DNA of 64,000 bases from a virus: the IMG/VR virus record IMGVR_UViG_3300027704_000008, positions 1 through 64,000 of that record; one strand, written 5' to 3'. A program made the translations under genes and the position numbers. A model generated the notes under the pieces. It ran no database searches. It was not told where the DNA came from and was given only the letters and a program-made list of their open reading frames with translations. Below are positions 1 to 62,618 of the stretch, piece by piece (positions within the stretch are counted from its first letter, which is position 1; each line of letters starts with the position of its first letter).

Positions 1-131
1 CCCGTGATCAAGTCCGCATAACACAAGATTGTTATCCAGCCGATCATATCGGAGGTGTTCCGGTGTATAATGCTGTACACCTGACTTCCGGACAAGGCAT
101 ATATGTAACTGCTGGAGAGCTCACTAAATGA
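1..131 (+). CDS. C-terminal end of an unidentified protein (partial)
   Basis: An open frame enters from the left edge (first full codon at base 3) and ends at TGA 129-131, overlapping the next ATG as ATGA. About 42 residues are visible, ending VYNAVHLTSGQGIYVTAGELTK. No family is recognised. The ATGA overlap indicates it is the upstream gene of the same operon as the leader-bearing proteins that follow. The start and most of the protein lie outside the window. Confidence 0.7.
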   Translation, partial: RDQVRITQDCYPADHIGGVPVYNAVHLTSGQGIYVTAGELTK

Positions 132-703
132 AGACATTTTCCCAGTTTATGCAAGAAGGTTTCCTCGATGACATGCTCGCAGACTTCGAACCCGTTTCCA
201 AGTCAGAGATAGATGCGGTGATGAAGAAGTCGGATGCTGTACTCGCAAAGTATTCCAAACAAAAACGGTATAAACCACGGAAGTACAGTGGTCAGAAACA
301 AGAAGGTTTCTCTACATATGTTCGTTCACAAGGCGAACTAAAAAAAGCGATTGGTGGTAAGGTAACTCTTGATGGCATTATCAAGATATTCGCAAACGGT
401 AACGTGAAGGTTGCCGATAACTTCCAACCCATGATTAGCATAAGCGAGTTGTGGAAGGTAAGAGAATACGACCGCAAGATGGTCGGGGGATTCACTGGTA
501 AGAACACCGAGTCTGAAATGAAGAAACTCAAAGCAGACATAAAGAAGAACGGCATCAAAGAGTATGGACATGTCAGCATTGACCGAAGAAAGAACGGTGA
601 CGTTGAGGTGCTGCTCGGAGAGGGCAACCATAGACTGGGTATCGCAAAGGAAGTAGGGATCAAAGAAATGCCAATATCATTCTCATATGGTAATCTACGA
701 TGA
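128..703 (+). CDS. Putative capsid-targeted internal protein with ParB-like C-terminus
   Basis: 191 aa. It begins MKTFSQFMQE, which closely resembles the ten-residue capsid-targeting leader of T4 internal proteins (MKTYQEFIAE), a leader that prohead protease gp21 removes after Glu. The C-terminal third, around residues 150-180, reads like a ParB/sulfiredoxin-type nucleotide-binding core (GHVSIDRRKNGDVEVLLGEG then NHR), so the mature protein could bind nucleotides or DNA. It is rich in Lys and Asp/Glu. It overlaps its neighbours by ATGA at both ends and is the first of five consecutive genes with this leader. Packaging and ejection into the host are inferred from the leader; the ParB resemblance is by motif only. 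Confidence 0.75.
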   Translation: MKTFSQFMQEGFLDDMLADFEPVSKSEIDAVMKKSDAVLAKYSKQKRYKPRKYSGQKQEGFSTYVRSQGELKKAIGGKVTLDGIIKIFANGNVKVADNFQPMISISELWKVREYDRKMVGGFTGKNTESEMKKLKADIKKNGIKEYGHVSIDRRKNGDVEVLLGEGNHRLGIAKEVGIKEMPISFSYGNLR

Positions 704-1212
704 AATCCTTCTCACAATTCAGTGAAGCATTTGATTCCCCATATAAGATTGATATGGTATCGTATAACGACAGGGACTATAAGGGAAAGGTGAAACTGAA
801 AGACGGTTCAATGTTGGTTGTTCGTGCCGACCGAGAAACAATTGGCACTGATAAATATTCTTGGGATATATCCTTTCAACGATCAGAAAAGCAGAGCGTG
901 ACTGGTGAAGGCGACCAGATGAAAGTCTTTGCCACTGTCATTGATGCCATCCAACAGTTTATAAAAAAACAAGATCCCGACGAATTCTCCTTCATTGCTG
1001 ACAAGGCAGTCCGTAACGACGACGCAGATCCAAAAGAATTACAGAGTCGCGAGAAGTTGTACAGTCGCCTTGTCAAGAAGTATTTCTCAAAGGGATATAA
1101 AGTAGAACAAGACACTAACAAACTCGGTACTGCTTGGATTATCAAAAAGCAAAAGGCAGTGAAGAAGGGACGGGTAAAACGATACGGGAGCAGACACAGG
1201 TCACGACTATGA
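700..1212 (+). CDS. Putative capsid-targeted internal protein, paralogue of the gene at 1823
   Basis: 170 aa, starting MKSFSQFSEAFDSPYK. The leader matches the T4 internal-protein type. The body aligns with the product of 1823-2344: both have AFDSxYK after the leader, a central W-DI-F-R stretch, TGxGDxxKxF, then a long helix ending in REKLYxRxxKKxF. They are therefore two copies of one family separated by a single unrelated gene. The C-terminus is very basic (KKQKAVKKGRVKRYGSRHRSRL), as expected for a protein packed with DNA. No catalytic motif is visible and the function is unknown. Start and stop overlap the neighbours by ATGA. Confidence 0.75.
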   Translation: MKSFSQFSEAFDSPYKIDMVSYNDRDYKGKVKLKDGSMLVVRADRETIGTDKYSWDISFQRSEKQSVTGEGDQMKVFATVIDAIQQFIKKQDPDEFSFIADKAVRNDDADPKELQSREKLYSRLVKKYFSKGYKVEQDTNKLGTAWIIKKQKAVKKGRVKRYGSRHRSRL

Positions 1213-1826
1213 AAAGATTCTCACAATTTATAGAAGAAGATGTCTCGCAAAGAGAGATCAATGATCTTGAGAAGTTTGCAGACAGACTGCTGAATAAATT
1301 TGATGTGGACATTGAATTCACCAAGCACTTTGCAGACCGTGTAAACGACAAGCGCAACAAACCTGGAATCGCTATCGAAGAGTTGCAAAGTCTGTTCAAG
1401 AAGATGGCGGCAAACAAGGGTAAGAAGATCAAGAAGCATGGCAACAGCGAAGCAATCCTGAAAGACATGCAGTCTGATTTGAACCTACCTGTCGTGGTGA
1501 ACTGGAAGAATGGCGAGTTTGAAGTTGTCAACAAAACCATAATGAGAAAGAAAGCATTCAAGTCTCCAGACCCAGCGATCAGGTATGAGTCTCAAGTCAA
1601 CGAAGGTTATGGTGGTCCAGGCATGTGGATGCCGAAACAGAAAGACGGCAAGAACTGGATTGTCTCGTACTCCGCTGTAATAAACGGTAAGACCGTTAAT
1701 GTTGATAGAAAATTCAGAGTCAAGTCAGACGCATTGGATTTTATAAAGGATTCTACAAAAATCTTAAAGAAAGACGATAGGGTGACCTCCTTTAAATTTG
1801 ATAAACCGAAGCCATATAAGAAATGA
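1209..1826 (+). CDS. Putative capsid-targeted internal protein
   Basis: The frame is open from 1134, but ATG 1209 is chosen because it overlaps the previous stop as ATGA and gives the leader MKRFSQFIEED shared with the neighbouring genes. The protein is about 205 aa and highly charged. Residues about 10-110 are helical and Lys/Asp-rich, with a KKHGNSEAILKDMQSDLNLPVVV segment that resembles small toxin-like or RelE-like folds only vaguely. The last 70 residues include YESQVNEGYGGPGMWMP and an SYSAVINGKTVNVDRKFR strand pair. No family can be named with confidence. Its role as an ejected protein is inferred from the leader. Confidence 0.72.
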   Translation: MKRFSQFIEEDVSQREINDLEKFADRLLNKFDVDIEFTKHFADRVNDKRNKPGIAIEELQSLFKKMAANKGKKIKKHGNSEAILKDMQSDLNLPVVVNWKNGEFEVVNKTIMRKKAFKSPDPAIRYESQVNEGYGGPGMWMPKQKDGKNWIVSYSAVINGKTVNVDRKFRVKSDALDFIKDSTKILKKDDRVTSFKFDKPKPYKK

Positions 1827-2344
1827 AATCGTTTATACAATTCAGTGAAGCATTCGATTCTTCTTATAAGTTCAATGGAAAGAAAGTTTCCGAGGATGAA
1901 TACTCATATGGGTTTGATTCAGAATATACCGACCTCAAAGGAAAAACGAAAAAGAGCAGGATACAAGTCGATATAGTCGGTAGTGAAAACGCAAACGATG
2001 AAGATCATTATATATGGGATATTGGTTTTAGTCGAAGACTAACACCGAACATGACTGCTGGCAAGATGATAATTCCTGGACAACCATCATACGGTATGAC
2101 TGGCGATGGTGATGGTCTGAAGATATTCTCCACTGTCATGAAGATCGCTCAAGAGTTTGTGAAGAAAGAAGACCCGAAATACGTTTCGTTTGCAGCAGAG
2201 AAACCCGAGGGCGCACCCAGCAAAGTAATGGCGACCAGAGAGAAACTCTATCTCCGTATGGCGAAGAAATTCTTTGGAAGCAAATTTAAGATAACATCAA
2301 AGTCGAGTTCCACTGGAACAGTATTCTATTTGGACAGAAAATAA
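1823..2344 (+). CDS. Putative capsid-targeted internal protein, paralogue of the gene at 700
   Basis: 173 aa, starting MKSFIQFSEAFDSSYKFNGKK. It shares with 700-1212 the AFDSxYK junction, the TGDGDGLKIFSTV segment, a helix with FVKKEDPKYVSFAAEK, and TREKLYLRMAKKFF near the C-terminus. It carries an extra insert around residues 75-95 (LTPNMTAGKMIIPGQPSYG). The conserved core suggests one compact alpha/beta domain of unknown function. It overlaps the previous stop and directly abuts the next start (stop 2344, next ATG 2345). It is likely co-translated with the other four leader genes. Confidence 0.75.
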   Translation: MKSFIQFSEAFDSSYKFNGKKVSEDEYSYGFDSEYTDLKGKTKKSRIQVDIVGSENANDEDHYIWDIGFSRRLTPNMTAGKMIIPGQPSYGMTGDGDGLKIFSTVMKIAQEFVKKEDPKYVSFAAEKPEGAPSKVMATREKLYLRMAKKFFGSKFKITSKSSSTGTVFYLDRK

Positions 2345-2857
2345 ATGAAAACATTCAAGCAGTTTACAACTGGTAAGACAAAAAGAAGCCCCGATTGGGG
2401 TACGCCGGAATCTGTTAAAACCGCAAAATATTTAACACCAGGGCAAGATGCCAACGAGCCCGCGGACAAGTTAACCGAACGGAGTCCTAGTGAAATTGCT
2501 AAGTTTGCTCTTGGCGGGGTTGTATTTAAGAAGCAGTATAAACTAGCCCTAGACGCATTGAAATCGGTCCTTGCTAGAAAAGGATCCAATCAAGTGGCAG
2601 GGCAACGTAAAGGTTCTCCTAAACATTCTATAGGATATTACGCTGCACAAATAGCAAAGAGCTATAGCCACGTTGATGGAAAAACTTTAGAGAAAATGAT
2701 ACCCAAAAACTTTGTGTTTGAAGAAGTTCCAGCTACTAGCACAGCATCTATTCCTGATAGTACCAATATTGGTCCTATGAAAGGCAAGCGTAAGAAGGCG
2801 CCTGTAACCAGACGCTATATAGAAATAATGGGCAAGCGAAGGAAGCAACAGCTATGA
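2345..2857 (+). CDS. Putative capsid-targeted basic internal protein
   Basis: 170 aa, starting MKTFKQFTTG. The leader is the weakest of the group because residues 8-10 lack the E at the expected gp21 cut site. The rest is strongly basic, with a Lys/Arg-rich end (PMKGKRKKAPVTRRYIEIMGKRRKQQL) and a central helix region (KYKLALDALKSVLARKG-like). No known domain was recognised. It follows the previous stop without any gap and overlaps the following membrane-protein gene by 4 bases. Packaging with DNA is inferred from the leader and charge. Confidence 0.7.
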   Translation: MKTFKQFTTGKTKRSPDWGTPESVKTAKYLTPGQDANEPADKLTERSPSEIAKFALGGVVFKKQYKLALDALKSVLARKGSNQVAGQRKGSPKHSIGYYAAQIAKSYSHVDGKTLEKMIPKNFVFEEVPATSTASIPDSTNIGPMKGKRKKAPVTRRYIEIMGKRRKQQL

Positions 2858-5222: not shown

Positions 5223-5912
5223 ATGTTCTACCTGTACCTAAAGACCCACGCCCGCACTAATATAAAATACCTTGGACAGACCTGCGAGGACCCACACACA
5301 TACGCTGGATCGGGGGCGCGATGGCTCAATCACTTGCGGAGGTATGGCGACGAGGTGGATACAGAGATATTGTGGGTCGGAGAAGATCGTAATGAGATGG
5401 TGGTGACTGGGATTAGATTCGCCAAGATGTTTAACGTTGTAGCTTCAGATGAATTTGCTAATGATGCACTGGAATCCGAATTGGATCACCATCAAGCTGG
5501 TAATGCAGAATGGCTTACGGCAAATCAACTTCCGGCAGTCCAAGAACGTCGAAGACGTGCAGCTCTTGGTAATACCAACACCCGCGGCAAGAAGTGGTGG
5601 TATAAAGCTGACACCAATAAAAGAGCCAGAGCTGAAGTGTCGCCAGGTATGGGATGGGTGAATAAGTGTCCAAAAGAATGGAGCTCAGATGGTCGAAAGA
5701 GAATATCGGAATCTTCATCTCGACCTAACACCAAAGAACATAACCGAAACATAAGCCTGGGCAAATCCGGACGCCCCAATAACAATAAAGGGACAATCTG
5801 GATAGTCAATGATACCACCGGACAACGAAAACGTGTCCAACCTGGAGCAGTGCCAGAAGGATACACAACTCTTACAGAAATTAGTGCTAGCAAAAAAAAG
5901 GATAATATATGA
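5223..5912 (+). CDS. GIY-YIG homing endonuclease between nrdA and nrdB
   Basis: 229 aa. The N-terminus has the GIY-YIG pattern as FYLYL then KYLGQT, followed by YAGSGARW with the catalytic-region Arg. The C-terminal half holds DNA-binding NUMOD3-like repeats around residues 170-190 (KEHNRNISLGKSGRP), as in Seg/I-TevI-type phage endonucleases. It overlaps the nrdB start by 4 bases (ATGA) and begins 14 nt after nrdA, so it sits as a free-standing mobile gene inside the nrd operon, not as an intron. T4-like phages commonly carry such genes next to nrd genes. Its target is probably the nrdA-nrdB junction of related phages. Confidence 0.88.
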   Translation: MFYLYLKTHARTNIKYLGQTCEDPHTYAGSGARWLNHLRRYGDEVDTEILWVGEDRNEMVVTGIRFAKMFNVVASDEFANDALESELDHHQAGNAEWLTANQLPAVQERRRRAALGNTNTRGKKWWYKADTNKRARAEVSPGMGWVNKCPKEWSSDGRKRISESSSRPNTKEHNRNISLGKSGRPNNNKGTIWIVNDTTGQRKRVQPGAVPEGYTTLTEISASKKKDNI

Positions 5913-11285: not shown

Positions 11286-12035
11286 ATGAAGAACTTAGTT
11301 TATCAGTATTACATTCCATATGAAGCTGGTGATAAAGACATCGGCGGCGCTTCAATGCCTAATTGGGCATTATCCGGATCCACTTCAGCTAAATCATATG
11401 CTGCACATTGTGGCGCAGATTATATGTTGAGTCACGATCGACTCTACCCTCACCTCGACCCTCGACTAGAATCCCTCCAGTTAATTCACGATCCAACATT
11501 TGAACAGTATGATCATATCCTGGCTCTCGATCTTGATATGATTATTGCTACTCGTGAAAATATATTTGAACTGCCTATACAAGACATTGCTATGGTACAC
11601 GAGCTTGGTGTTTTCACAGGAAATTCAGCTGGTTGGATTAACAAGATTATGAATCATCCCATGGAGCAGAGAGGTGTCAGAGCTTATGGCCGTCATCTAT
11701 TTGGATCCGATTGGGATTTTCCTAAATCAACTTTGTATCCACAAGAACAGTTTCGATACATGAATGGAGGTCTGCAACTTTGGTCCGCTGCAGGTAGATT
11801 AAAAGCCAGAGAGAACTTCAGATGTGTTAATCATTATTATGCCCACACTCGATACACGGAGCAGATGTATATCAACATACAATTATCTCAACCAATGTTC
11901 AACGTCACAGAATTAGATACTTCGTGGAACCGGCTAGCTTATCAATGGCCCGGAAAAAAACCTGATGGTAAGATTAATCACTTTCTCGGACAGTCTAAGT
12001 CAATGATGAGTCAATATGGGAACTTGCACCAATGA
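11286..12035 (+). CDS. GT-A-type glycosyltransferase, MKNLVYQY family
   Basis: 249 aa. It starts MKNLVYQYYIPYE and carries a DxD metal and sugar-nucleotide motif in LALDLDMII (Asp82, Asp84), as in GT8-like retaining enzymes. FRYMNGGLQLWSAAG resembles the NxG acceptor-side motif. It is the first of four related genes (also 14763, 15587, 16246) that share the N-terminal strand, an aligned QYDxxLxLDxD block and a C-terminal HF-type segment. The acceptor is unknown: host surface glycan, virion protein and DNA are all possible. Confidence 0.75.
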   Translation: MKNLVYQYYIPYEAGDKDIGGASMPNWALSGSTSAKSYAAHCGADYMLSHDRLYPHLDPRLESLQLIHDPTFEQYDHILALDLDMIIATRENIFELPIQDIAMVHELGVFTGNSAGWINKIMNHPMEQRGVRAYGRHLFGSDWDFPKSTLYPQEQFRYMNGGLQLWSAAGRLKARENFRCVNHYYAHTRYTEQMYINIQLSQPMFNVTELDTSWNRLAYQWPGKKPDGKINHFLGQSKSMMSQYGNLHQ

Positions 12036-12622
12036 GCAATTACCTTGAAGTAGGCGCATCTAAACAAAGAGGATTGAACTGGATGTTGATTGGATTCAAT
12101 GTCCACGATATGACAAATCTACCAATACCGATGGTATCAGATAATGAGTTTGATGGTGTATATTCTGAGCACTTCATTGAGCACTTATACAAGTATCAAG
12201 GTATTAATTTTTTGAAGGAGTGTATGCGAATACTCAAGCCTGGTGGCACTATTCGAATCTGCTGGCCAGCATACGAATACGTTGAACGGTTGGTTGGTCC
12301 CGAGGATTTGACTAAGGACGAGTTTGTTGATGAGTATTACAATTTATATATCAAACCTAAACAGCATGATGAGTTTAAAGAGCATATGCATAGATCGCCT
12401 CAAGAACAAGTCGCGTTGAATATTATACATCAAGCTGGTCAGCATTTGCACGTTTGGGCCAAGACAGAATTGATGCAGGAGCTTTCGGACTTGGGATATG
12501 TGAACGTAGTCGATTGTGAATATGGTAAGAGTTCTATTATTGACTTCAATAATATTGAGACACCAGGAAGACTCAGAGAACTCCATTCCAGTCAAATTGA
12601 AGCTACAAAACCTAGGAATTAA
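12032..12622 (+). CDS. Class I SAM-dependent methyltransferase, copy 1
   Basis: 196 aa. The core is NEFDGVYSEHFIEHL ... LKECMRILKPGGTIRICWP, the motif post-I to motif III pattern of small-molecule or sugar methyltransferases. It starts YLEVGASKQRGLNW, a reduced motif I. The C-terminal SSIIDFNNIETPGRLRELHS is shared with the next gene. It overlaps the upstream transferase by 4 nt. Probably methylates a sugar of the glycan built by this cluster. Confidence 0.78.
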   Translation: MSNYLEVGASKQRGLNWMLIGFNVHDMTNLPIPMVSDNEFDGVYSEHFIEHLYKYQGINFLKECMRILKPGGTIRICWPAYEYVERLVGPEDLTKDEFVDEYYNLYIKPKQHDEFKEHMHRSPQEQVALNIIHQAGQHLHVWAKTELMQELSDLGYVNVVDCEYGKSSIIDFNNIETPGRLRELHSSQIEATKPRN

Positions 12623-12624
12623 TT

Positions 12625-13227
12625 ATGGCCACTTATTTAGAAATAGCAGCAGCCCGTAAACGTGGTCTCAATTGGGACGGCATTAGAGATGTTCCAATGG
12701 ATGGTTGTATGGTATATGATATGACCAACCTACCTATGAAGGGTGTGCAAGATAATACTTATGATGGTGTATATTCTGAGCACTTCATTGAGCACCTGCA
12801 CAAATATCAAGGCATCAATTTTCTAAAAGAATGTCTCCGTGTAATGAAACCAGGCGGCACCGTGCGCACATGCTGGCCCCCATATGATATTATAAAACGG
12901 TTAACCAGTAACGAAGATCTTTCTACTGATGAGTTTGTACAACACTATTACAACTTCTATGTTCAGAAACATAAGTTTGCTCCTCCAGGTAATGAGCACC
13001 GGAGCATGCAAGAACAAGTGGCTTTAGGTTTATTGCATCAATCTGGTGAACACAAATATCTCTGGGGTAAGCAAGAACTGATCGATACGCTTGGGGGGTT
13101 GGGTTTTGTTAATGTCAAGGAGTGCTCTTATAATAAAAGTTCTATATTAGATTTCAACGGTATAGAAACACCAGGTAGGATAAGAATGTTACATTCAGTG
13201 ATAGTAGAGGCATGTAAGCCGTGCTAA
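12625..13227 (+). CDS. Class I SAM-dependent methyltransferase, copy 2
   Basis: 200 aa and a tandem paralogue of the previous gene: DGVYSEHFIEHLHKYQGINF matches it nearly residue for residue, as do LKPGG/MKPGG and SSILDFNGIETPGR. A 34-nt DNA stretch is identical between the two (12151-12184 and 12762-12795), pointing to a fairly recent duplication. Differences cluster in the N-terminal 30 residues and at 115-125, so substrate choice may have diverged. Confidence 0.78.
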   Translation: MATYLEIAAARKRGLNWDGIRDVPMDGCMVYDMTNLPMKGVQDNTYDGVYSEHFIEHLHKYQGINFLKECLRVMKPGGTVRTCWPPYDIIKRLTSNEDLSTDEFVQHYYNFYVQKHKFAPPGNEHRSMQEQVALGLLHQSGEHKYLWGKQELIDTLGGLGFVNVKECSYNKSSILDFNGIETPGRIRMLHSVIVEACKPC

Positions 13228-13760
13228 CCATAATTGTATTGTATAAAGACACACCGGACATATTTAAAGAATATTGGTTACCCTTGATATACAAACATGG
13301 AGGGCAAGGGGCTCTACACGGAGCATGCTTGGAGTTTATTATTGTCGATAACGGATCAGATAATCCGTTGCCGGATCAAGGAATAAAAAATCTAAGAATA
13401 TACACCGCAGCAAAAACATTGCCTAATGATCAAGCCATCGGCATGGCGATTAGATATGCTCAAAATGAGTTAATACTTATTACGGATATTCATTCGTTGC
13501 CCACATATCAAACCATGACATTACTACAAGACCTATATAATAAGAATCAAACAATTTGGCCAGTGTGGTTTGACGCTCCCGACGTTAAATGTGAAAATGC
13601 CTTCTCTATACTGAGATCCGATTTTAAGAAACATAATGATATCCGAAAATGCGCCCAGCTAACTCAATCCTCGGTAGACTCTACAGCTAGTATGTATCGG
13701 GTTCCGTGGAGCATAATTATAGACAAAAACGCCGCTCGAATAAAAGCTCTTTATGAATAA
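13221..13760 (+). CDS. Short GT2-like glycosyltransferase
   Basis: 179 aa. The N-terminus LTIIVLYKDTPDIF and LEFIIVDNGSDNPLPD are the GT2 nucleotide-binding strands, and ILITDIHSLP replaces the usual DxD. It is much shorter than typical GT2 enzymes (over 230 aa) and lacks the C-terminal membrane-association region. It overlaps both neighbours by 7-8 nt. It may be a minimal or degenerate transferase. Confidence 0.62.
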   Translation: MLTIIVLYKDTPDIFKEYWLPLIYKHGGQGALHGACLEFIIVDNGSDNPLPDQGIKNLRIYTAAKTLPNDQAIGMAIRYAQNELILITDIHSLPTYQTMTLLQDLYNKNQTIWPVWFDAPDVKCENAFSILRSDFKKHNDIRKCAQLTQSSVDSTASMYRVPWSIIIDKNAARIKALYE

Positions 13761-14766
13761 TATACTTGTTGTGGGCGCAGGATTATCTGGGGCAGTTATT
13801 GCTAGGGAACTTGCTGAATTTGGTTGTAATGTGCATGTTATAGACAAGAGGGATCATGTTGCCGGAAACGCTTATGATTATCAAGATTCGTATACCGGTA
13901 TACGAATACATAAATATGGTCCTCATATATTTCACACCAATAACAAAAAAGCCTTCACTTGGTTCACTCGCTTTGGTGAGTGGGTTAATTATAAACATAA
14001 GGTGAAGGCTAAGTTGAAAAATGGTCAAATGGTGACTCTACCCGTCAATCTGACTACAAAAAGGATTGTCGGCGAAAATAATTTACTCGATGTTTTATTT
14101 CGCCCATATACAAAGAAGATGTGGAACAAAGAAATAGAAGAGTTGTCTCCCACTATTCTAAACCGGTTACCCACCCGAGACGATGATAACGAGTACTATT
14201 TTCCTAATGATCAATATCAATTTATGCCTAAGTCTGGATACACATCTATATTCAAAGAAATATTTGATCACAAAAATATCAAAGTTAGTCTGAACACCCC
14301 TTTCCATAAACATATGAAAAAAGATTATGATCATATATTCAACTCAATGTCTATAGATGAGTATTTTGACTACAGATATGGAAAGTTACCATATAGATCC
14401 ATAAAATTTTTAACGTCCACTTTAGGAGAAACTCAATATTACGGTTTGCCGGTAGTAAATTTTACAGACATGGGACCATTCACGCGCGTAACAGAGTGGA
14501 AGTGTTTTCCATCACACGGTGAAAATAAAAACTGCACAGTCGTGACCTTTGAGGAACCCTGCGACTATATGGACAACAATCTAGAAAGATATTATCCAGT
14601 AAAAGACATAGATGGATCAAATAGAAGGACATATCAATCTTATAAATTATTAGTAGAAGATAATATGACTTTCATCGGTCGGTGTGGAATGTATGTCTAT
14701 ATCGATATGGATCAGGCGATACATTCATCGCTAATAACAGCGCAGAAATTTAAGGATACAATATGA
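13753..14766 (+). CDS. glf: UDP-galactopyranose mutase
   Basis: 337 aa. FAD-binding GAGLSGAVIARELAEFG (8-24) is followed by VIDKRDHVAGNAYD, the hallmark YGPHIFHTN, PYTKKMWN, a substrate-side RVTEWKCFP, and a C-terminal GRCGMYVYIDMDQAIHSSL FAD/GR motif. These order and motifs are those of bacterial Glf, which converts UDP-galactopyranose to UDP-galactofuranose; usual length is about 370 aa, so this is a compact version. Its presence among glycosyltransferases implies the cluster uses Galf, a sugar common in bacterial surface polysaccharides. It overlaps both neighbours. Confidence 0.93.
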   Translation: MNNILVVGAGLSGAVIARELAEFGCNVHVIDKRDHVAGNAYDYQDSYTGIRIHKYGPHIFHTNNKKAFTWFTRFGEWVNYKHKVKAKLKNGQMVTLPVNLTTKRIVGENNLLDVLFRPYTKKMWNKEIEELSPTILNRLPTRDDDNEYYFPNDQYQFMPKSGYTSIFKEIFDHKNIKVSLNTPFHKHMKKDYDHIFNSMSIDEYFDYRYGKLPYRSIKFLTSTLGETQYYGLPVVNFTDMGPFTRVTEWKCFPSHGENKNCTVVTFEEPCDYMDNNLERYYPVKDIDGSNRRTYQSYKLLVEDNMTFIGRCGMYVYIDMDQAIHSSLITAQKFKDTI

Positions 14767-15587
14767 AGAATTTGATATATCAATACTGGGCAGGACCAGA
14801 TAAACCAGGAGTAACAGCCAGCACCGAGAAGATGGCAGAATACGCCAAACGCATCGGCGCGCAATATAGATTTGATAATAATATAATCATTGCTGGACAT
14901 AAGTGTGATGTGCCTATCTATTATGAACCAGCTAATCCGTTGGTGGATGATTCGTTCGATCAATATGATAATGTCGCTTTAGTTGACATTGATGTATTTC
15001 CAATTGATTCACTATCGGAAAATATATTTGAACATTTAAGCGGAGAAGACGCTGGTATATGCACTGAACCCATGCAACCATACTGGAGACAGATATATAA
15101 CGTAGCTAGCATAACAAACACCAATGATATGAGGTGGTGTAGTATACTAAAAGATAATTGGGGTGTAAATTATTCCTTTGATAATGAAGGACGACCAATG
15201 GTATATAATACCGGAGTGGTCGTCATTTCTAAAAAAGGACTGCAAAAGATTAAGAGTACTTGGCCGTCCTTTCAAGAATATATTAATGCTATGCGGCGCG
15301 CTGGCTTACCAAATTTTTACAACTTGTTTCAAGATTATTTCTCGGCCTTTATACATAAAGAGGGTTTTGAGTTCAAGTCTATGCATAATGGTTGGAATTC
15401 GTATGTACATAAACTTGGTGCACGTCCAAATGCTATAGCCAATGATACCAGAACCGATGAAACAAAACTGGTTCATATCATGTTTCGTAATGCAGATAAT
15501 TGGCCAGCAGATGCTCTTTGGCGAGTAACAAATCTACCCGTAACTCTCTGGAATTTACCAGTGCATTCTAACTGGCCAAATGATTGA
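14763..15587 (+). CDS. GT-A-type glycosyltransferase, MKNLIYQYW family
   Basis: 274 aa, starting MKNLIYQYWAGP. The DxD motif is VALVDIDVFP (Asp75, Asp77). PMVYNTGVVVISKKG gives the NTGV acceptor-region signature of GT8-like folds. Asn/Trp-rich C-terminal motifs (HNGWNSYVHK, FRNADNWPADALWR) are distinctive. It overlaps glf by 4 nt, so the Galf donor and this enzyme are probably made together; it is a candidate galactofuranosyltransferase, by context only. Confidence 0.72.
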   Translation: MKNLIYQYWAGPDKPGVTASTEKMAEYAKRIGAQYRFDNNIIIAGHKCDVPIYYEPANPLVDDSFDQYDNVALVDIDVFPIDSLSENIFEHLSGEDAGICTEPMQPYWRQIYNVASITNTNDMRWCSILKDNWGVNYSFDNEGRPMVYNTGVVVISKKGLQKIKSTWPSFQEYINAMRRAGLPNFYNLFQDYFSAFIHKEGFEFKSMHNGWNSYVHKLGARPNAIANDTRTDETKLVHIMFRNADNWPADALWRVTNLPVTLWNLPVHSNWPND

Positions 15588-16249
15588 TGAAAAATATTAT
15601 ACTTCAACATTTTACCGGAGAACTAAGACCGCTTGATAGATTATCAATATCAAACATAACAAGGTATTGTCATAAGATAGGCGTGGAATATGAATTAGTG
15701 TTGGGTCAAGCATTTCGGGAGCACCTCACTCCCCCGTGCCAAAAGGTATGTTTATTAGATGAACGTTTCGATCGATATGATAACGTTTTAATGCTAGACA
15801 TAGATATGTTTGCTACTAGAGATCTTTCCGATAATGTATTCGACATCGAGCCCGGAATAGGATTGCACGTTCAAACGCAACAAATGCTGCTGAGTCGTAT
15901 GGTGAGTCATTATAGGTTGCGTCCTCAATCGGCATATTGGGGTGGATCTTTCTATAAGATGGATCGAGAAACTAGGATAAAACTTCGCTCATTTATTCCC
16001 AAGGACGATAGTTGGATGGACTTATATAACAAACCATATCATTTTGAAGACGAAGGTATCATGGCTGAATTGTACCATAAGGCCGGATACACAGATACGA
16101 AATACATAGATAGACGTTGGTGCCAATGTAGTTTTTTACCCGAGCACGTGCCAGGCTTCATACACATCAGAACCAAGATAACTCCAGCTGGTCCAAAAAG
16201 AGAAAAGCTGGCTAACTATGACCACCTGGTATCAAAGGAAATAATATGA
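15587..16249 (+). CDS. GT-A-type glycosyltransferase, MKNIILQH family
   Basis: 220 aa from ATG 15587, which overlaps the previous stop (TGATG); the in-frame TTG one codon earlier is not needed. The sequence MKNIILQHFTGEL ... YDNVLMLDIDMFATRD (Asp71, Asp73) aligns throughout with the next gene. HFEDEGIMAELYHK and a C-terminal HIRTKITP segment hold the likely catalytic acidic residue and His. Paralogue of 16246-16965. Confidence 0.75.
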   Translation: MKNIILQHFTGELRPLDRLSISNITRYCHKIGVEYELVLGQAFREHLTPPCQKVCLLDERFDRYDNVLMLDIDMFATRDLSDNVFDIEPGIGLHVQTQQMLLSRMVSHYRLRPQSAYWGGSFYKMDRETRIKLRSFIPKDDSWMDLYNKPYHFEDEGIMAELYHKAGYTDTKYIDRRWCQCSFLPEHVPGFIHIRTKITPAGPKREKLANYDHLVSKEII

Positions 16250-16965
16250 ACAATATAATACTACAACATTGGAATGGAGACTTACCTAGCTGGGCATCTG
16301 TAGCTAGACAGACCATGGAAAATTATGCACAAGCTATAGGGTGTGATTATGAATTGGTCACAGGACATCCTGTGGGAAAACAACATGGTCCATGGAGTCA
16401 GAAGTTGTGTCACCTTGATGAAAAGTATGATAAATATGATAAGGTGTTAATGTTAGATATGGATACCATTGCCACTAGAAAGAACGCTAATGTTTTTGAT
16501 AGGCCTGAGGTTGGTGTGATACACGAACGCGCGATGATGGGGCCACACCGCGCCCGAACACCTAAAGGGGCTCCAGGTTTATATAATCGCGGCGAGTTAG
16601 TGTTCTTTGGTAACTTTATAATGTTGAAACGGGGTCAAAGATTGGCTCTTCGTGAGCATTTAGATTGGAACTTATTTGAAAAAGAAATAATAGATCATTA
16701 CTGTGGTGATGAAATTATTATGCATTATCTACTCGACAAGTCTGGTATACTGAAAGGTAAACCGTATGAAGAAATTTGTATGAGGTGCGGTGGAACTACA
16801 ATTGATAATGTGTATTTTAGAGAGTCTGGTACATATGATAAATTATTCTGCAATTTACCAGATGTGGGTCACACCGATCCTGATGGAAATGCTACCTTCG
16901 TTCATTTTTGTTCAAATCGAAAAAATAATTTAGAGTCTTTTGTTTCACAGCATAACATACTGTAA
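16246..16965 (+). CDS. GT-A-type glycosyltransferase, MNNIILQH family
   Basis: 239 aa. MNNIILQHWNGDLPSW ... YDKVLMLDMDTIATRK (Asp71, Asp73) aligns with the preceding gene; CGDEIIMHYLLDKSG corresponds to its DEGIMAELYHK. Compared with the upstream copy it has a central insert (HERAMMGPHRARTPKGAPGL) that could shape the acceptor site. It overlaps the previous stop (ATGA). Confidence 0.75.
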   Translation: MNNIILQHWNGDLPSWASVARQTMENYAQAIGCDYELVTGHPVGKQHGPWSQKLCHLDEKYDKYDKVLMLDMDTIATRKNANVFDRPEVGVIHERAMMGPHRARTPKGAPGLYNRGELVFFGNFIMLKRGQRLALREHLDWNLFEKEIIDHYCGDEIIMHYLLDKSGILKGKPYEEICMRCGGTTIDNVYFRESGTYDKLFCNLPDVGHTDPDGNATFVHFCSNRKNNLESFVSQHNIL

Positions 16966-16976
16966 GGAGAAATATT

Positions 16977-17555
16977 ATGATGTTTGGTCGCAACCCTGGT
17001 TCAGATAGAACCGTAGATCATATACCATTGGGTTCCACAGGCGCCGAGTTGGGTGTTTGGAAAGGTGATACATCCGCAAAGTTTTTAACTCGGGCTGGAC
17101 ACCTGCACCTAGTAGATTCGTGGAGTCCTATCCCGTATGAGGAATCTGGAGAATGGGGTACCTATCAGAATTATCTAGACAGATATTCCTGTCTAGTTGG
17201 AGGAGAAACAACCGAAGATTTTAATCAATTCTATGATCAAATATGTGAAGGTGTTAAAGCGAGATTTCTCTCTAGTAATGTAACAATACATAGAATGAGC
17301 ACAGATTCTTGGTTTGATAGAGCAATCAATAAGTATACCTTAGACTGGATATATGTTGACGCAAGCCACGCATACGAACAAGTATTAAAAGATCTTAACA
17401 ACAGTCTGCGGGTAGTTAAATATGGAGGATTTATTATTGGAGACGATTACTCTGATAAGAAACCTGGAGTGAAAGCGGCCGTGAACGATTTCATCTCATC
17501 GACGGACTATGTGCTTGACAACTTTTATGATGATCAATATAAAATAAACTTATGA
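16977..17555 (+). CDS. Class I SAM methyltransferase (Methyltransf_24-like)
   Basis: 192 aa. GAELGVWKGDTSAKFL is motif I, HLHLVDSWSP motif II, WIYVDASHAYEQVLKDLNNSLRVVKYGGFIIGDDY covers the metal-site DASH and the GG motif. This pattern is typical of the Methyltransf_24 / TylF-like group that methylates sugar hydroxyls or rhamnose. AAGGAG precedes the start by 5 nt (16966-16976 region). It differs in type from the tandem methyltransferases at 12-13 kb. Confidence 0.85.
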   Translation: MMFGRNPGSDRTVDHIPLGSTGAELGVWKGDTSAKFLTRAGHLHLVDSWSPIPYEESGEWGTYQNYLDRYSCLVGGETTEDFNQFYDQICEGVKARFLSSNVTIHRMSTDSWFDRAINKYTLDWIYVDASHAYEQVLKDLNNSLRVVKYGGFIIGDDYSDKKPGVKAAVNDFISSTDYVLDNFYDDQYKINL

Positions 17556-17644
17556 ACATAGATACCGCTAACATGCAATCTGGTGATGATAAACAACGCA
17601 TTGCAACAGCCGTAGAAAAGGCTATAAAGATTAACAACGGTTAA
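17552..17644 (+). CDS. Possible 30-aa peptide
   Basis: ATG 17552 overlaps the preceding stop (ATGA) and the frame runs 30 codons to TAA 17642-17644, filling nearly the whole gap to the next gene. The peptide (MNIDTANMQSGDDKQRIATA ...) has no recognisable domain. Translation is supported only by the overlap. Confidence 0.4.
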   Translation: MNIDTANMQSGDDKQRIATAVEKAIKINNG

Positions 17645-17650
17645 TACATA

Positions 17651-18376
17651 ATGATAAAGATATATATTATTACGACGAAAACTGACACGGCCACTAATCA
17701 AAGCCGCAAATTAATACACTCTATGTCCAAAAACAACATTGATACAGAGTGTATACTTGTTGAGGCGACTACTCCAGAAACGTTGACTTCACATTCGGCT
17801 GCGTCTAATCGCTTGTCCTCCTTCAAATGGAATTGGCCACTAACACCCCAGCAGAGTGGTATTGACATGGCGTCAGGGCTTTATAAGAACGCCTATGCCG
17901 CGCAAAATCAACAAAAGGTCATCGCCTGTGCAATCTCTCATGCTTTATTGTGGGAAAAATGTGTTGATATGGATGAGGATATAATGATACTCGAAAGTGA
18001 TTCTGTATTCACTCGTCATTTCGACTATAACGATGTCAAGGATAGCAAGTGGGGTGCACTTGGATTAAACGATCCACGAGGGACAACACGAAAGGCTTCG
18101 GTTTTTCATTCCATTGCTACAGCCAATAGGAAGCCGGGCGTATATAGTGTTCCGAAAGTTGATGAAATAGGAAGCGTTCCTCAACCACAGGGCTTAGCTG
18201 GGAATAGTGCATACCTGATACGTCCATATGCAGCAGCCCAGCTGCTAGACGCTATTGATACATATGGACTATGGCCCAACGATGCTTTGATGTGTCAAGA
18301 AATGTTTTCGTGGTTACGGATCACACAACCGTTTTATACTCGTGTGCAAGGTGGTGGATCGTCCACTAAAGGATAA
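17651..18376 (+). CDS. GT25-like glycosyltransferase, copy 1
   Basis: 241 aa. KIYIITTK at the start, ACAISHALLWEKC (about 92-104) and EDIMILESDSVF (109-120) match the SH-LW and LExD pattern of family 25 lipooligosaccharide glycosyltransferases. NSAYLIRPYAAAQLLD corresponds to the family's GxxAYlis segment. The following gene is a relative. GT25 enzymes usually add hexoses to LPS cores, which suggests surface-glycan modification. Confidence 0.75.
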   Translation: MIKIYIITTKTDTATNQSRKLIHSMSKNNIDTECILVEATTPETLTSHSAASNRLSSFKWNWPLTPQQSGIDMASGLYKNAYAAQNQQKVIACAISHALLWEKCVDMDEDIMILESDSVFTRHFDYNDVKDSKWGALGLNDPRGTTRKASVFHSIATANRKPGVYSVPKVDEIGSVPQPQGLAGNSAYLIRPYAAAQLLDAIDTYGLWPNDALMCQEMFSWLRITQPFYTRVQGGGSSTKG

Positions 18377-18384
18377 ATTATATT

Positions 18385-19047
18385 ATGAAAGCATTTGTTA
18401 TAACTATTATGAAGATGCGGGAGTCATATGACTGCGCGCAGAGGTGTATTAGGTCAGGCGCAAAATATGGTATTGATATAACACCGTTCTCTGCTATCAC
18501 GCCTTCAGATGGTCCAGTTAAGTTACTGCGTAGAGAAGGTATTGATTCTGAGCCGTTCACTAATAATGAATACTCTAAAGATCTCAATGCTATGTCGTGT
18601 TTTTTATCTCACTATCATTTGTGGAAGCGTTGTGCCAACGGTGACGAACCATATATGATACTGGAACACGATGCTGTGTTTACTGCCCCGTTACCGACTC
18701 TTATGTTTGATAAGGTCGTAAGTGTCGGCGCTCCAAGCTTCGGATCGTTCAACACCCCCACAACCCTTGGAGTGGGTCCGTTGGTTAGTAAGCGATACTT
18801 TCCAGGAGCCCATGCGTATCTTGTTAACCCACGAGGCGCAAAAGAACTGGTTGACCAGGCTAAGGTAACAGCAGCTCCCACAGACGTATTTCTTCATATA
18901 GGTACCTTCCCTTGGTTGCAAGAGTGCTACCCATGGGTAGCTGAGGTAAGAGATACTTTTACCACCGTTCAGGTGCAACGAGGATGTGAAGCTAAGCATA
19001 GTTATCGTAAGTCGGCTGCGGACTATAAAATTATGGATATTAAATGA
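18385..19047 (+). CDS. GT25-like glycosyltransferase, copy 2
   Basis: 220 aa. KAFVITIMKMRESYDCAQRC, AMSCFLSHYHLWKRC (69-83), EPYMILEHDAVF (88-99) and GAHAYLVNPRGAKELVD follow the GT25 pattern in order, with LEHD at the catalytic acidic site. It ends with an aromatic-rich region. It starts 8 nt after the previous gene and overlaps the next by 4. Confidence 0.78.
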   Translation: MKAFVITIMKMRESYDCAQRCIRSGAKYGIDITPFSAITPSDGPVKLLRREGIDSEPFTNNEYSKDLNAMSCFLSHYHLWKRCANGDEPYMILEHDAVFTAPLPTLMFDKVVSVGAPSFGSFNTPTTLGVGPLVSKRYFPGAHAYLVNPRGAKELVDQAKVTAAPTDVFLHIGTFPWLQECYPWVAEVRDTFTTVQVQRGCEAKHSYRKSAADYKIMDIK

Positions 19048-19769
19048 AACTCAATTTATTAACAGTGTGCACAGATTGGTATCCGTTAGAATACGCTAAC
19101 AAGCTGGTTAACCGTTTAAACGAAGTATCTCAATATGATATATCAAACTATTGCATAACAGATCGCGACATACAGTTTGCCGAACCAATCAAACCCAAGC
19201 TACCTCCAGGATCAGGCTGGTGGAATAAAACTCAGTTGTTTGACATTAATGGCCCATCCGGATGGAATTTATACATGGATATCGACATAGTCATTATAAA
19301 AGAGTTTGACCATGTGATAGATCATGTGATGCGTGAGGATAAACGAGACACAATAACTTGTGTCAGCGACGCCATCGGCTGGATGGATAATAAGTTTAGT
19401 TCGTCGTGGATGATGTTTTATAGAGGAGCGGGAGCAGATATTCCTACAACGTTTATGACCGACTCAAATAATATTATGAAACAACCTGGCGGTGATCAAG
19501 TGTGGATAGGTAAAACCATGCAGCCTAAGATAGAATACATTGATGATACCTTTCCACACTTAAAGAAGAACTTAAAATATGATCTGGGTTCAAAAATATT
19601 CGCCCCTTTGTCATCCACCCACCCTGTCAGATTGCCGGGGAGTAAATGGCAGTTCCCGACCGTCCTAGATAAAAGAGTATCTCTAGTTGACTGTGGAGGC
19701 AAACCTAAGCCACATGATCTCGAACAACTCGACTATATAAAGCGCAACTGGCACGACGTGAGGATATAA
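19044..19769 (+). CDS. GT8/GT-A-like glycosyltransferase
   Basis: 241 aa. GWWNKTQLFDI and GWNLYMDIDIVIIKEFD place a DxD at Asp79/Asp81. SSSWMMFYRGAGADI and PGGDQVWIG follow, as in GT8-like enzymes where the second motif contacts the acceptor. It is not closely related to the MKN-IYQYW family because the N-terminus and spacing differ. Overlaps both neighbours by 1-4 nt. Confidence 0.72.
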   Translation: MKLNLLTVCTDWYPLEYANKLVNRLNEVSQYDISNYCITDRDIQFAEPIKPKLPPGSGWWNKTQLFDINGPSGWNLYMDIDIVIIKEFDHVIDHVMREDKRDTITCVSDAIGWMDNKFSSSWMMFYRGAGADIPTTFMTDSNNIMKQPGGDQVWIGKTMQPKIEYIDDTFPHLKKNLKYDLGSKIFAPLSSTHPVRLPGSKWQFPTVLDKRVSLVDCGGKPKPHDLEQLDYIKRNWHDVRI

Positions 19770-20374
19770 TGTCAATAGTACACTTATTAGGAAACGGCGA
19801 CAGCGCCCAAATATTTAACAATGTCGAGAGGGAGCCAAAGGACAAGGTATTAATTTGCAATGTCCCACCGTTCACTGTCCGAAAAGTATTTGCGTGTATC
19901 ATGGTAGATTTCAAAATGATGGCAGCTCTTTCGGAAGGTAGTGTCAATTTAAATGCGTACGATTGGGTGTTGGGTACCAGACCACAGAGATATATGGAGA
20001 TGTTCCCTTCCTTCTATCTACAGTATGCCCCCCGCATCAAGGATTTTTATACCACAGTTCCTCCGTACGCTGGATCCGCCACCGACTTCAATTGTGGGCA
20101 TATGGCTGCACACTACGCTTGCTCTAAGTTGAAGTGCTCTGAGCTTCATATGTACGGTTTTGATAGCATATTCGATTACAGCCTGCGTAGCTCGTCGGAT
20201 CTGTTTCTGGAAAGCGATCGGGGTCAAATGAACAACCACCGTCTGATCAACATATGGCGGCCAATATGGGAAGGTATATTCAATGAGCACCCACAGGTTA
20301 AGTTTGTATTGCATCACACTCACAATAACGCTAAAATAGCCTTCCCCGACAACGTTGAAGTACGCACTCCCTAA
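19769..20374 (+). CDS. Unidentified Rossmann-like protein ending the sugar cluster
   Basis: 201 aa. It starts SIVHLLGNGDSAQIFN, a GNGxS loop after a hydrophobic strand like that seen in some sialyltransferase-type and DUF115-type folds. ATDFNCGHMAAHYACSKLKCSELHMYGFDSIF is a second Rossmann-like half with GFD, a motif found in phage and bacterial glycan-modifying proteins. The sequence is consistent with a GT-B-like or sialyltransferase-like enzyme, but I cannot name it. Last gene of the operon. Confidence 0.55.
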   Translation: MSIVHLLGNGDSAQIFNNVEREPKDKVLICNVPPFTVRKVFACIMVDFKMMAALSEGSVNLNAYDWVLGTRPQRYMEMFPSFYLQYAPRIKDFYTTVPPYAGSATDFNCGHMAAHYACSKLKCSELHMYGFDSIFDYSLRSSSDLFLESDRGQMNNHRLINIWRPIWEGIFNEHPQVKFVLHHTHNNAKIAFPDNVEVRTP

Positions 20375-49983: not shown

Positions 49984-52900
49984 ATGACAAACTTCAATAT
50001 TTATGGCGGGGAAACAGTTCTCCCAATCCCAACAACATCCGATAATCCTTTAATAGATAACTTATTTCGATCTACATATAAGGATGATTTTTCAGACAGC
50101 GCTGGATACCATCGAGTTTTGTTTAACTCTGGCAAAGCCATTCAGGCTCGAGAGTTAACGCAGCTCCAGACTATTATTCAAAGGGAAATCTCTAGGTTTG
50201 GTAATAATATATTCAAAGAGGGAGCCGCAGTAAACCCAGGCGGTATGACTGTAACTGCCTATGATTATGTAAAAGTAACCAGCAGCAACTGGAACAATGA
50301 CACCTCAGTTTTATTGCGGGGTGGTGTTATTACTGGTGCCAATGGAGCAGTAGCTAAAATACTGGATAAAGTCAATGCCGTAGGAGACGATCCTAATACC
50401 CTGTATATACAATATACCTCAACCCCATCCGGATCAGGTGGGTCAGATACTACAACAGCGCCCAAATTTCAGATTGATGAAGTATTGACTGTTGTAAAGC
50501 CAAATGGCGGTTCAGTAGAGTTAACCTGCGCAAACGAGGCTCCGTCCGGACAAGGATTGGTGGCATCAAGTGCTGCTGGGGATTTCTTTGTTGAAGGACA
50601 CTTCATCTTCGCTCATCCTCATTCTATTATTATCAGTAAATATAGCACAACCCCCACAGCTGTTATTGGTTTTAGAATTATTCAAGACATTGTTACGGTT
50701 GCTGATACCAATGATCTGTATGATAATCAGGGAGCCCTTCCAAACTTCACCTCGCCGGGTGCCGATCGTTATAGAATTAGACTTCAGTTAGCAGATCAAG
50801 CCACCATAGATTCTGACACAAATTTTGTATACGTTGCCAAAATTAGAGACGGGGCAATTGTTACTCAGGTCGAGGGGGATGAAGGATATAATAAGATACT
50901 AGATTTGATGGCTCTGCGAACTAAAGAAGAGTCTGGAGACTATATTGTCAAGCCATTTGATTTTAGTGTATCTCAGGATTCGGCTCTTTCTCCTGCGTTT
51001 AACGTTAAGTTATCGTCAGGGGTTGCATATGTCAATGGATATCGAGCGGAGCACTCCGACAGAGAAGTTAGGCTTTTATCTGAAAAGCCAGTAAGTGTTG
51101 TCCAAATGTCAGAAGAAACTATTCCGATCAACTATGGTAATTATGTATTATTCTCTGTCCAGAAAGGACTTCCAAATATAACTACATTCCCGACCGTTAA
51201 TTTGTATGCTTCGATTGGTGGGACAGGCACTATTATTGGAACGTGTCGGATTAGATCTGTGGCTCGGGATGGGGCGAATTATCGAGCTTACCTGTTTGAT
51301 ATTAAGATGAATGCAGGACAAAGTGCTAGATTGATTAGGAGTATAGGAACTAGCACGACGGACTATATTAATCCACTAATAGAAGCTGATTACGGTCTGC
51401 CAACGATTAGAGGGACGGCTGATCACAGTTTACTATTTCCTATGCCGCGGCTGCGCTCTAAGGTTATGGAAGATGTAGACCTGTTTGTGATGAGAGAGTT
51501 CCCGCTGACGGTGAGTGGTAACTCTGTAACAGTCTCAGTGACCGCCACCGGAGAATCATTAACCCAGACTGCCAGTTGGATCGTCGCCGCCGCTGCTGGT
51601 GATATACTATCGGGCTTTACGGTGACCGTTAATAGCTCCACGTCCATTACTCTTTCTGGAGACGGCACTACTTTACCCAACGGCGCCACCACCATTATGG
51701 CTATTGTAAAAGTGGGCGCCGGCACAGTACGATCTAAAACTTTAACCTCAGCCACAGTAGCGGTAGGATTGGACAGCGATGGGTCTGGCAATAAGTGGGT
51801 ACCTCTAAACCGTGCTGATATATTCTCGGTTGATAGGGTGCGACTGGTAGACAGCGATGGTACAGAAGATAAGGCAAGTTTGTTTGATCTGGATAATGGT
51901 CAACGGGACAACTTTTATAGTCTTGGGCGATTGCTCCTAAAGCCTGGACAGTCAGCGCCGTCTGGGAATATTTTTGCTAGGTTTACTCACTTTGCTCATG
52001 GAGCCGGAGACTTCTTCGCTATTAACTCTTATGCGGCAGGTCCAAATTACGCTGATGTTCCAAAATTTAGAAAGAATACTGCCGAAACCGTCAACCTAAG
52101 AGACGTGTTAGACTTTAGGCCCGTCCAAGATTCAAACGGACAATACCCTGCTGCCAACATTAACCAGTTGCCGTTATCTGGAACGCTGGTAACATCCGAC
52201 ACCACATATTATCAGGGGCGCAAAGATACAATTGTTATTAACGAAAAGGGCGTGGTGTCCATTATTAAAGGAAACGAATCCCTCGCCCCCCAGTTTCCGG
52301 ACACGAACTCCATGACTGGAGTTCTTCCGTTGTATAATGTTGAAATGAACCCCAATACGTTGCACACCAACGACTTGCAAGCAACACGGGTTAGGGCTAG
52401 ACATTATACTATGGCAGATATTGGTGATATAGAAGATGACCTGGTCGATCTAAAACGAACTACAGCCCTTAGCCTTCTTGAAACTAATACAGCTAATTGG
52501 CAAGTGTTCGATAGCGATGGCTTGTCAAGAACGAAATCTGGGTTCTTAGTAGATAACTTTAAAAACTACAGTATGTCAGATTTTACGGGCATCAACGGTC
52601 AGGTTAACCCGAACTATCGAGCAGTGGTCGATCCTCAGCTAGGAATGGTACGTCCATCGTTTGTAGATAATAATATAAAAATGTTTGCGGATGTGGCGGC
52701 AAACGGTAGCAATGTAGTACAGAAAGGGGATAACATATACTTAGCCTATACCCATGAAGTAGAGGTGGAACAACCAATCTGCTCGGATACTGAGAATGTT
52801 AACCCGTTTCAGGTTACGACGGGGGCAGGCAATCTGACCATTAGTCCAACAAGGGATGAATGGGCGAGTATGATAGTCCTTGCTGATGAGGATTTGCCTG

Positions 52901-62351: not shown

Positions 62352-62618
62352 ATGAAGTCGTTTAAAAAGTTTACTGAAGCAACGTATCAAGGTAAAAAGG
62401 TTGCGCTGAATAAGCCGAGTGCGGGTGACGTCAAAAAGTCTAAAGTGTTTGTTGACCCGGATGGTGATGGTACGGCGCAGAAGGTAAATTTTGGTGATAA
62501 AAACATGACCATTAAGAAAAACATCCCCTCAAGAAAAAAATCATTCCACGCAAGACACAAGTGTGATACAGCAAAGGATAAAACTACACCAAGATATTGG
62601 AGCTGTAAGGCTTGGTAG
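62352..62618 (+). CDS. Leader-bearing small protein between gp16 and gp17
   Basis: 88 aa, starting MKSFKKFTEATYQGKK, the same leader type as the five genes at 0.1-2.9 kb. The remainder is basic (GDKNMTIKKNIPSRKKSFHARHKC ... TPRYWSCKAW) with two Cys and a short C-terminal Cys/Trp motif. T4 has nothing at this position, but similar small basic genes occur there in T4-like marine phages. Probably a capsid-packaged or DNA-binding protein. Confidence 0.72.
   Translation: MKSFKKFTEATYQGKKVALNKPSAGDVKKSKVFVDPDGDGTAQKVNFGDKNMTIKKNIPSRKKSFHARHKCDTAKDKTTPRYWSCKAW

Follow-up and report, generated by a model that had tools for sequence, protein, structure and literature searches.

Whether a phage marks proteins for packaging inside its head by a short common leader is the question raised by five consecutive genes at one end of IMGVR_UViG_3300027704_000008, a 138.6-kb record of a T4-like phage known from sequence data alone. 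The window analyzed here is positions 1 to 64,000 of that record (64,000 nucleotides). The original prediction held that the five genes carry a capsid-targeting leader of the T4 internal-protein type and form a cassette of injected host-takeover proteins. The five open reading frames, at 128, 700, 1209, 1823, and 2345, have the starts and N-termini on which it was based; all begin with MKxFxQF, encode basic proteins, and are translationally coupled. Their features are as follows (a slash marks a predicted cleavage site).

1–127, no strand: 127-bp direct repeat, with an exact copy at 138496–138622 of the record
128–157, plus strand: gene 1 leader MKTFSQFMQE, predicted cut after Glu10, at the orthologue boundary
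158–703, plus strand: gene 1 body, 181 aa, pI 9.6, with a ParB-like C-terminal region at about 515–676
700–726, plus strand: gene 2 leader MKSFSQFSE, predicted cut FSE/A
727–1212, plus strand: gene 2 body, alpha/beta, paralogue of gene 4, weak DUF6934 match
1209–1238, plus strand: gene 3 leader MKRFSQFIEE, predicted cut IEE/D
1239–1604, plus strand: gene 3 domain A (DVSQ...), ending at predicted VNE/G; mostly cytidyltransferase-fused in relatives
1605–1826, plus strand: gene 3 domain B (GYGGPGMW...), encoded by itself behind a leader in relative L097
1823–1849, plus strand: gene 4 leader MKSFIQFSE, predicted cut FSE/A
1850–2344, plus strand: gene 4 body, paralogue of gene 2 by body comparison
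2345–2365, plus strand: gene 5 leader MKTFKQF, aromatics kept, Glu absent at 9–10
2366–2479, plus strand: remaining gene 5 propeptide, ending at predicted LTE/R (residue 45), aligned with polyprotein junctions
2480–2725, plus strand: gene 5 main module, also found within larger proteins ending in gene 3 domain A
2726–2857, plus strand: gene 5 basic tail (APVTRRYIEIMGKR), after a possible FEE/V, resembling small leader proteins of relatives
62352–62618, plus strand: further leader gene, MKSFKKFTEA, whose body recurs behind other leaders and behind an internal MME/S site

T4 genetics has assigned capsid targeting to leader residues 4 and 7 and cleavage to residues 8 and 10, in the form L/I-x-E (PMC9026906). 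Phe occupies both targeting positions in all five cassette proteins. The processing residues are I8/E10 in gene 3 and M8/E10 in gene 1, whose orthologues have I or L at position 8. Genes 2 and 4 have FSE, with Glu9 and with Phe rather than Leu or Ile at P3, and orthologues with YIEE and YLTE conform. The start of gene 5 (MKTFKQFTTG) has no Glu at positions 9–10, and a candidate site, LTE, lies at residues 43–45. Judged by sequence, genes 1 and 3 appear to carry a complete T4-type capsid-targeting sequence, genes 2 and 4 a nearly complete one, and gene 5 the targeting half only. The proposed cut after residue 10 thus fits genes 1 and 3; in genes 2 and 4, the Glu is at position 9, and gene 5 does not fit. 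The same leader type precedes many non-homologous bodies. Mature forms of the five proteins have pI values of 9.3–10.2, compared with a genome median of 5.9 and with 9.6–9.7 for T4 IPII and IPIII.

A degenerate DNA pattern for MKxFxQF matched the 138.6-kb record at the five cassette starts only, and the reversed pattern gave 0 matches. As a control, a pattern search of T4 (NC_000866) gave seven matches, three of which were at annotated starts (ipII, ipIII, and 61.1); none of the other four was at a gene start within T4 1–50000 and 58000–67500, two of them (109899 and 128392) lying outside these stretches. The reversed pattern matched T4 once. Because of the non-start matches and the reversed-control match, the DNA pattern alone is unclean, and it is useful at annotated starts. 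The T4 gene 61.1 (18966–19130, minus strand, 54 aa, uncharacterised) starts with MKTFKEFIKE, similar to a capsid-targeting sequence. Small leader proteins in marine relatives (L096, L016, and L128) resemble its product, which is possibly a further T4 internal protein.

At the protein level, a leader regex including Glu matched seven ORF starts in the 138.6-kb record and 2 of 767 internal Met positions. A rule derived from T4 (aromatics near 4 and 7, Glu near 10) also matched seven ORF starts, against 1 of 761 internal Met positions (binomial P = 9e-5); as the regex limits were set with the five leaders already in view, the P values are indicative. One of these seven, the ORF at 49984, looks like chance. 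Leader enrichment was not found in genome G003. Relatives also have leaders: they are present in L059 and L097, and the same bodies stand behind hydrophobic-x-Glu inside larger proteins.

Comparison of gene 1 orthologues (80–92% identical) revealed that residues 2–9 are variable and that near-invariance begins exactly at Glu10. Mean column identity is 63% in the leader and 93% from Glu10 on, and the leader is the 9-column window of lowest conservation in the alignment. Such a boundary would be expected if residues 1–10 are a separate, removable module. The record also encodes a gp21-type protease (PF03420, E = 5.8e-41), gp22 (PF25623, E = 1.6e-60), and gp23. In gp23, the source phage and three relatives have the candidate sites FLTE/T, FLTE/T, MLSE/S, and LME/A; these presumably fall where T4 gp23 is cut and appear to belong to the same class as the leader sites. 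Leader-like starts occur as well on the small gene between gp67 and gp21 (68864; L006 5864–6052; MKSFQEIREA) and on gp21 (L006 6056–6718; MKLISEFSE).

The 127-bp terminal repeat is exact despite the linear classification of the record. Since the ends are identical over 127 bp, the record is circular as assembled and its ends are adjacent; the operon therefore crosses the join, and the five-gene cassette continues a larger block. A far-end gene reads through the repeat until its stop codon overlaps the start of gene 1, to which it is ATGA-coupled, because positions 1–127 recur exactly at the other end. The predicted coupling within the cassette is present, with ATGA overlaps at the gene 1/2, 2/3, and 3/4 junctions and direct abutment of genes 4 and 5 (TAA followed by ATG); gene 5 overlaps the next gene downstream. 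The block order is DUF6267, cytidyltransferase, repeat "polyprotein", DUF7207, the five leader genes, and nrdAB. DUF7207 and one further gene lie 5' of the cassette, and a small gene followed by nrdAB lies 3'. The cassette is thus five consecutive leader genes, as first described, yet only part of a larger unit. Upstream across the join, the DUF6267 protein bears the leader MKSFKGFVTE, and a basic protein and a cytidyltransferase-like protein (MAIGSFKQYVTEE) are also encoded there. A lysine-rich protein of 1035 aa (132715–135822; net charge +72) contains seven EQVDE/ERVDE motifs spaced 60–200 aa, where 0.007 were expected in shuffles, and is a candidate multi-site gp21 substrate.

No near-identical DNA was found among the phage records searched, and neither the name DUF6267 nor the leader strings were found in the literature searched, which omits most subscription journals. 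Elsewhere in the record, by eye, a possible GIY-YIG-like ORF lies between nrdA and nrdB (5223–5912), and a series of ORFs at 11286–20374 have similar starts (MKNLIYQYW, MNNIILQHW) and are perhaps mutually related. Two ORFs, at 103963–104943 and 105258–106304, have near-identical N-termini (MAWLLIPNN, MAWKGIPNN), with similar proteins in relatives L096 and L098.

Domain A of gene 3 is fused behind a cytidyltransferase-like region in most of 80 loci. Fifteen upstream contexts were compared: two are N-terminal leaders (the source phage and L059), and 13 are within larger proteins. The residue directly before the domain is Glu in 15/15 and position −3 is hydrophobic in 14/15, hydrophobic-x-Glu being a short motif with a background of 2.2% of positions. 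Some of the 13 internal contexts are variants of one ancestral region and are therefore not fully independent. The Glu could belong to domain A itself, yet the hydrophobic residue at −3 recurs in unrelated contexts. The junction was not found in two distant gene 3 relatives, phiM12 and immuto. Domain B stands behind VNE/G in gene 3 and in L097 forms a protein by itself, headed by a leader of its own.

The gene 5 module follows the same scheme, its junction being LTE/R in gene 5 and FISE/R or FAE/R in larger proteins. Three other bodies occur in both states: AYQQF (leader MTE/A, internal LDE/A), RYALY (LDE/K, LEE/K), and ValKK3, whose junction is NLTE/AFD. A tblastn search with gene 5 against phage records gave no match; relatives do occur in viral contigs. 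As cargo domains stand either behind a leader or behind protease-like sites in larger proteins, the block has the look of a cargo system whose parts can be exchanged.

An independent test was provided by cyanophage S-CREM2, for which a virion proteome has been published; its authors note carry-over of abundant non-virion proteins (PMC10665884). All 219 ORFs were translated and the T4 spacing rule was applied. The strict rule selected ORFs 6, 14, 136, and 154, and 4/4 are in the virion mass spectrometry (MS) list (Fisher p = 2.7e-4 among the 193 ORFs that remain once 26 MS proteins with an assigned structural or lysis role are excluded); the association weakens to p = 0.016 among ORFs of at least 200 aa. 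With a relaxed rule, 5/6 matches were in the virion proteome; the strict spacing comes from T4 positions, the relaxed spacing was chosen after the matches were known, and the whole test comprises 4–6 proteins. A looser leader regex was dropped, its S-CREM2 matches having included chance ones. Between the cytidyltransferase and primase genes, 4 of 9 ORFs (154, 155, 156, and 160) are in the virion proteome, and the related leader proteins found in S-CREM2 virions include a SAM hydrolase and an APH-like kinase. The Cas9-like nuclease of this phage (OR473000 7704–10313, minus strand), reported in virions, has an internal leader-like RFASFMAE at residues ~18–25.

Capsid targeting with gp21-type cleavage is well supported, because both targeting positions (4 and 7) are retained, the genome encodes a gp21 homologue, and orthologues have a sharp Glu10 boundary, and because hydrophobic-x-Glu recurs in internal contexts and the rule matches S-CREM2 virion proteins. 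The original prediction is thereby supported in part. We put at about 0.82 the probability that the five genes encode internal-head-protein precursors and that the system works like T4 capsid targeting. Leader residues 1 to 7–10 would then act as a targeting sequence like that of the T4 internal proteins, in which the aromatics at 4 and 7 attach the precursor to the prohead core formed by gp22. The gp21-type protease would then cut after hydrophobic-x-Glu, and the freed basic mature protein would remain in the head alongside the DNA. A second internal site would divide the products of genes 3 and 5 into two pieces each. The cassette forms one end of a block including the leader-bearing DUF6267 protein, the cytidyltransferase, and the lysine-rich repeat protein. 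Cargo domains pass between two states, as single leader genes or as parts of larger proteins, and hydrophobic-x-Glu is retained at the junction. Cleavage, packaging, and injection in the source phage, and a role early in infection, are what this mechanism would predict.

The same genes might instead encode prohead core or scaffold proteins like T4 gp67 and gp68, which are cut by gp21 and serve head building or DNA condensation with no host action. The leader-like starts of gp21 and of the gene preceding it are in keeping with such a role, as are the basic bodies and the highly charged repeat protein nearby. However, cassette content varies strongly among close relatives, unlike that of core head proteins, and related leader proteins include enzymes (a cytidyltransferase, and the SAM hydrolase and APH-like kinase of S-CREM2 virions). 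We therefore regard a purely architectural role as unlikely.

Two further explanations leave the head aside. If the proteins were early cytosolic effectors whose N-terminus binds a host or phage partner, the position of the block next to nrdAB, outside the head cluster, and bodies without structural-protein family matches would be natural; the presence of S-CREM2 ORFs 154, 155, 156, and 160 in virions and the gp21-like site logic at domain A junctions, however, make this improbable. Even less credible is a common N-terminus that merely reflects translation or recombination (coupled ATGAAR starts or a recombination handle) and has no packaging role. ATGA overlaps account for part of the "MK", and a single genome often has closely similar leaders, for example L097, but hydrophobic-x-Glu precedes the same domains internally, where no start codon is involved, leader sequences diverge widely while the pattern and Glu are kept, and the leader is associated with S-CREM2 virion proteins.

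For the internal-head-protein precursors themselves, host takeover may be the function, as first suggested. The ParB-like end ascribed to one member is the C-terminus of gene 1, where residues 130–183 weakly match the ParB-like PHROG 723 (E = 6e-4) and no Pfam match was found. The two predicted paralogues are genes 2 and 4, 33% identical over the body. Their predicted structure is a confident alpha/beta model (pLDDT 81); top Foldseek rows were mostly GNAT, with modest values (E about 2e-3, TM 0.3–0.44), and VIA-align placed an RNase E DNase-I-like domain above GNAT, also with modest scores (Z 9.8 versus about 7). Domain A of gene 3 gave a low-confidence model (pLDDT 54) without a fold match. 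The RegB profile matched one distant relative (E = 0.002), short of the curated cut-off, and PF10715 (RegB) had no match in the genomes searched. For domain A, a T4 RegB-like nuclease thus has a single weak Pfam lead, which profile–profile comparison did not support (probability 6.7%). Searches of the five genes against PADLOC and NCBIfam returned nothing convincing, and those against sequences of solved structures only weak, unconvincing matches.

The injected internal proteins of T4 have long been a small set known from T-even phages. We lean towards the view that marine T4-like phages use a modular head delivery, in which domains are exchanged between leader genes and multi-domain precursors that the prohead protease cleaves; one protease would then both mature the head and free variable, early-acting proteins entering with the DNA. 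If the T4-derived rule holds, it predicts which unknown gene products of marine T4-like phages, an abundant group, are packaged and delivered, the candidates including SAM hydrolase, kinase, and nucleotidyltransferase-like proteins. The action of these phages on the cell before transcription would thereby become testable. The rule also singles out the unstudied T4 gene 61.1.

Like T4 IPI, IPII, and IPIII, the cassette proteins combine a short leader, two aromatics (positions 4 and 7), and a gp21-type site ending in Glu with basic mature proteins and divergent bodies under a common leader. In contrast to the T4 proteins, they are encoded by five adjacent genes, the Glu is at position 9 in genes 2 and 4 and absent from 9–10 in gene 5, several have a second internal site, and their domains are also segments of larger proteins; no body homology to the T4 internal proteins was detected. 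Several hydrophobic-x-Glu sites per chain recall T4 gp22 and gp67, which are multi-site gp21 substrates, whereas each cassette segment resembles a domain of its own that is also found as a single leader gene. Polyvalent proteins are multidomain phage proteins proposed to enter with the DNA, including ParB- and Srx-like domains (Iyer et al., 2017; PMC5512222). The block yielded no clear instance of the domains typical of them; its own domains, in contrast, are separate leader genes or are joined via predicted prohead-protease sites. In the giant phages SPN3US and phiKZ, ejection proteins carry prohead-protease propeptides (PMC5694885). The likeness lies in propeptides on internal proteins and in gp53 and gp54, which have diverged yet have identical N-termini. 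Relative to the T4 internal-protein system, the cassette system appears to be larger and modular.
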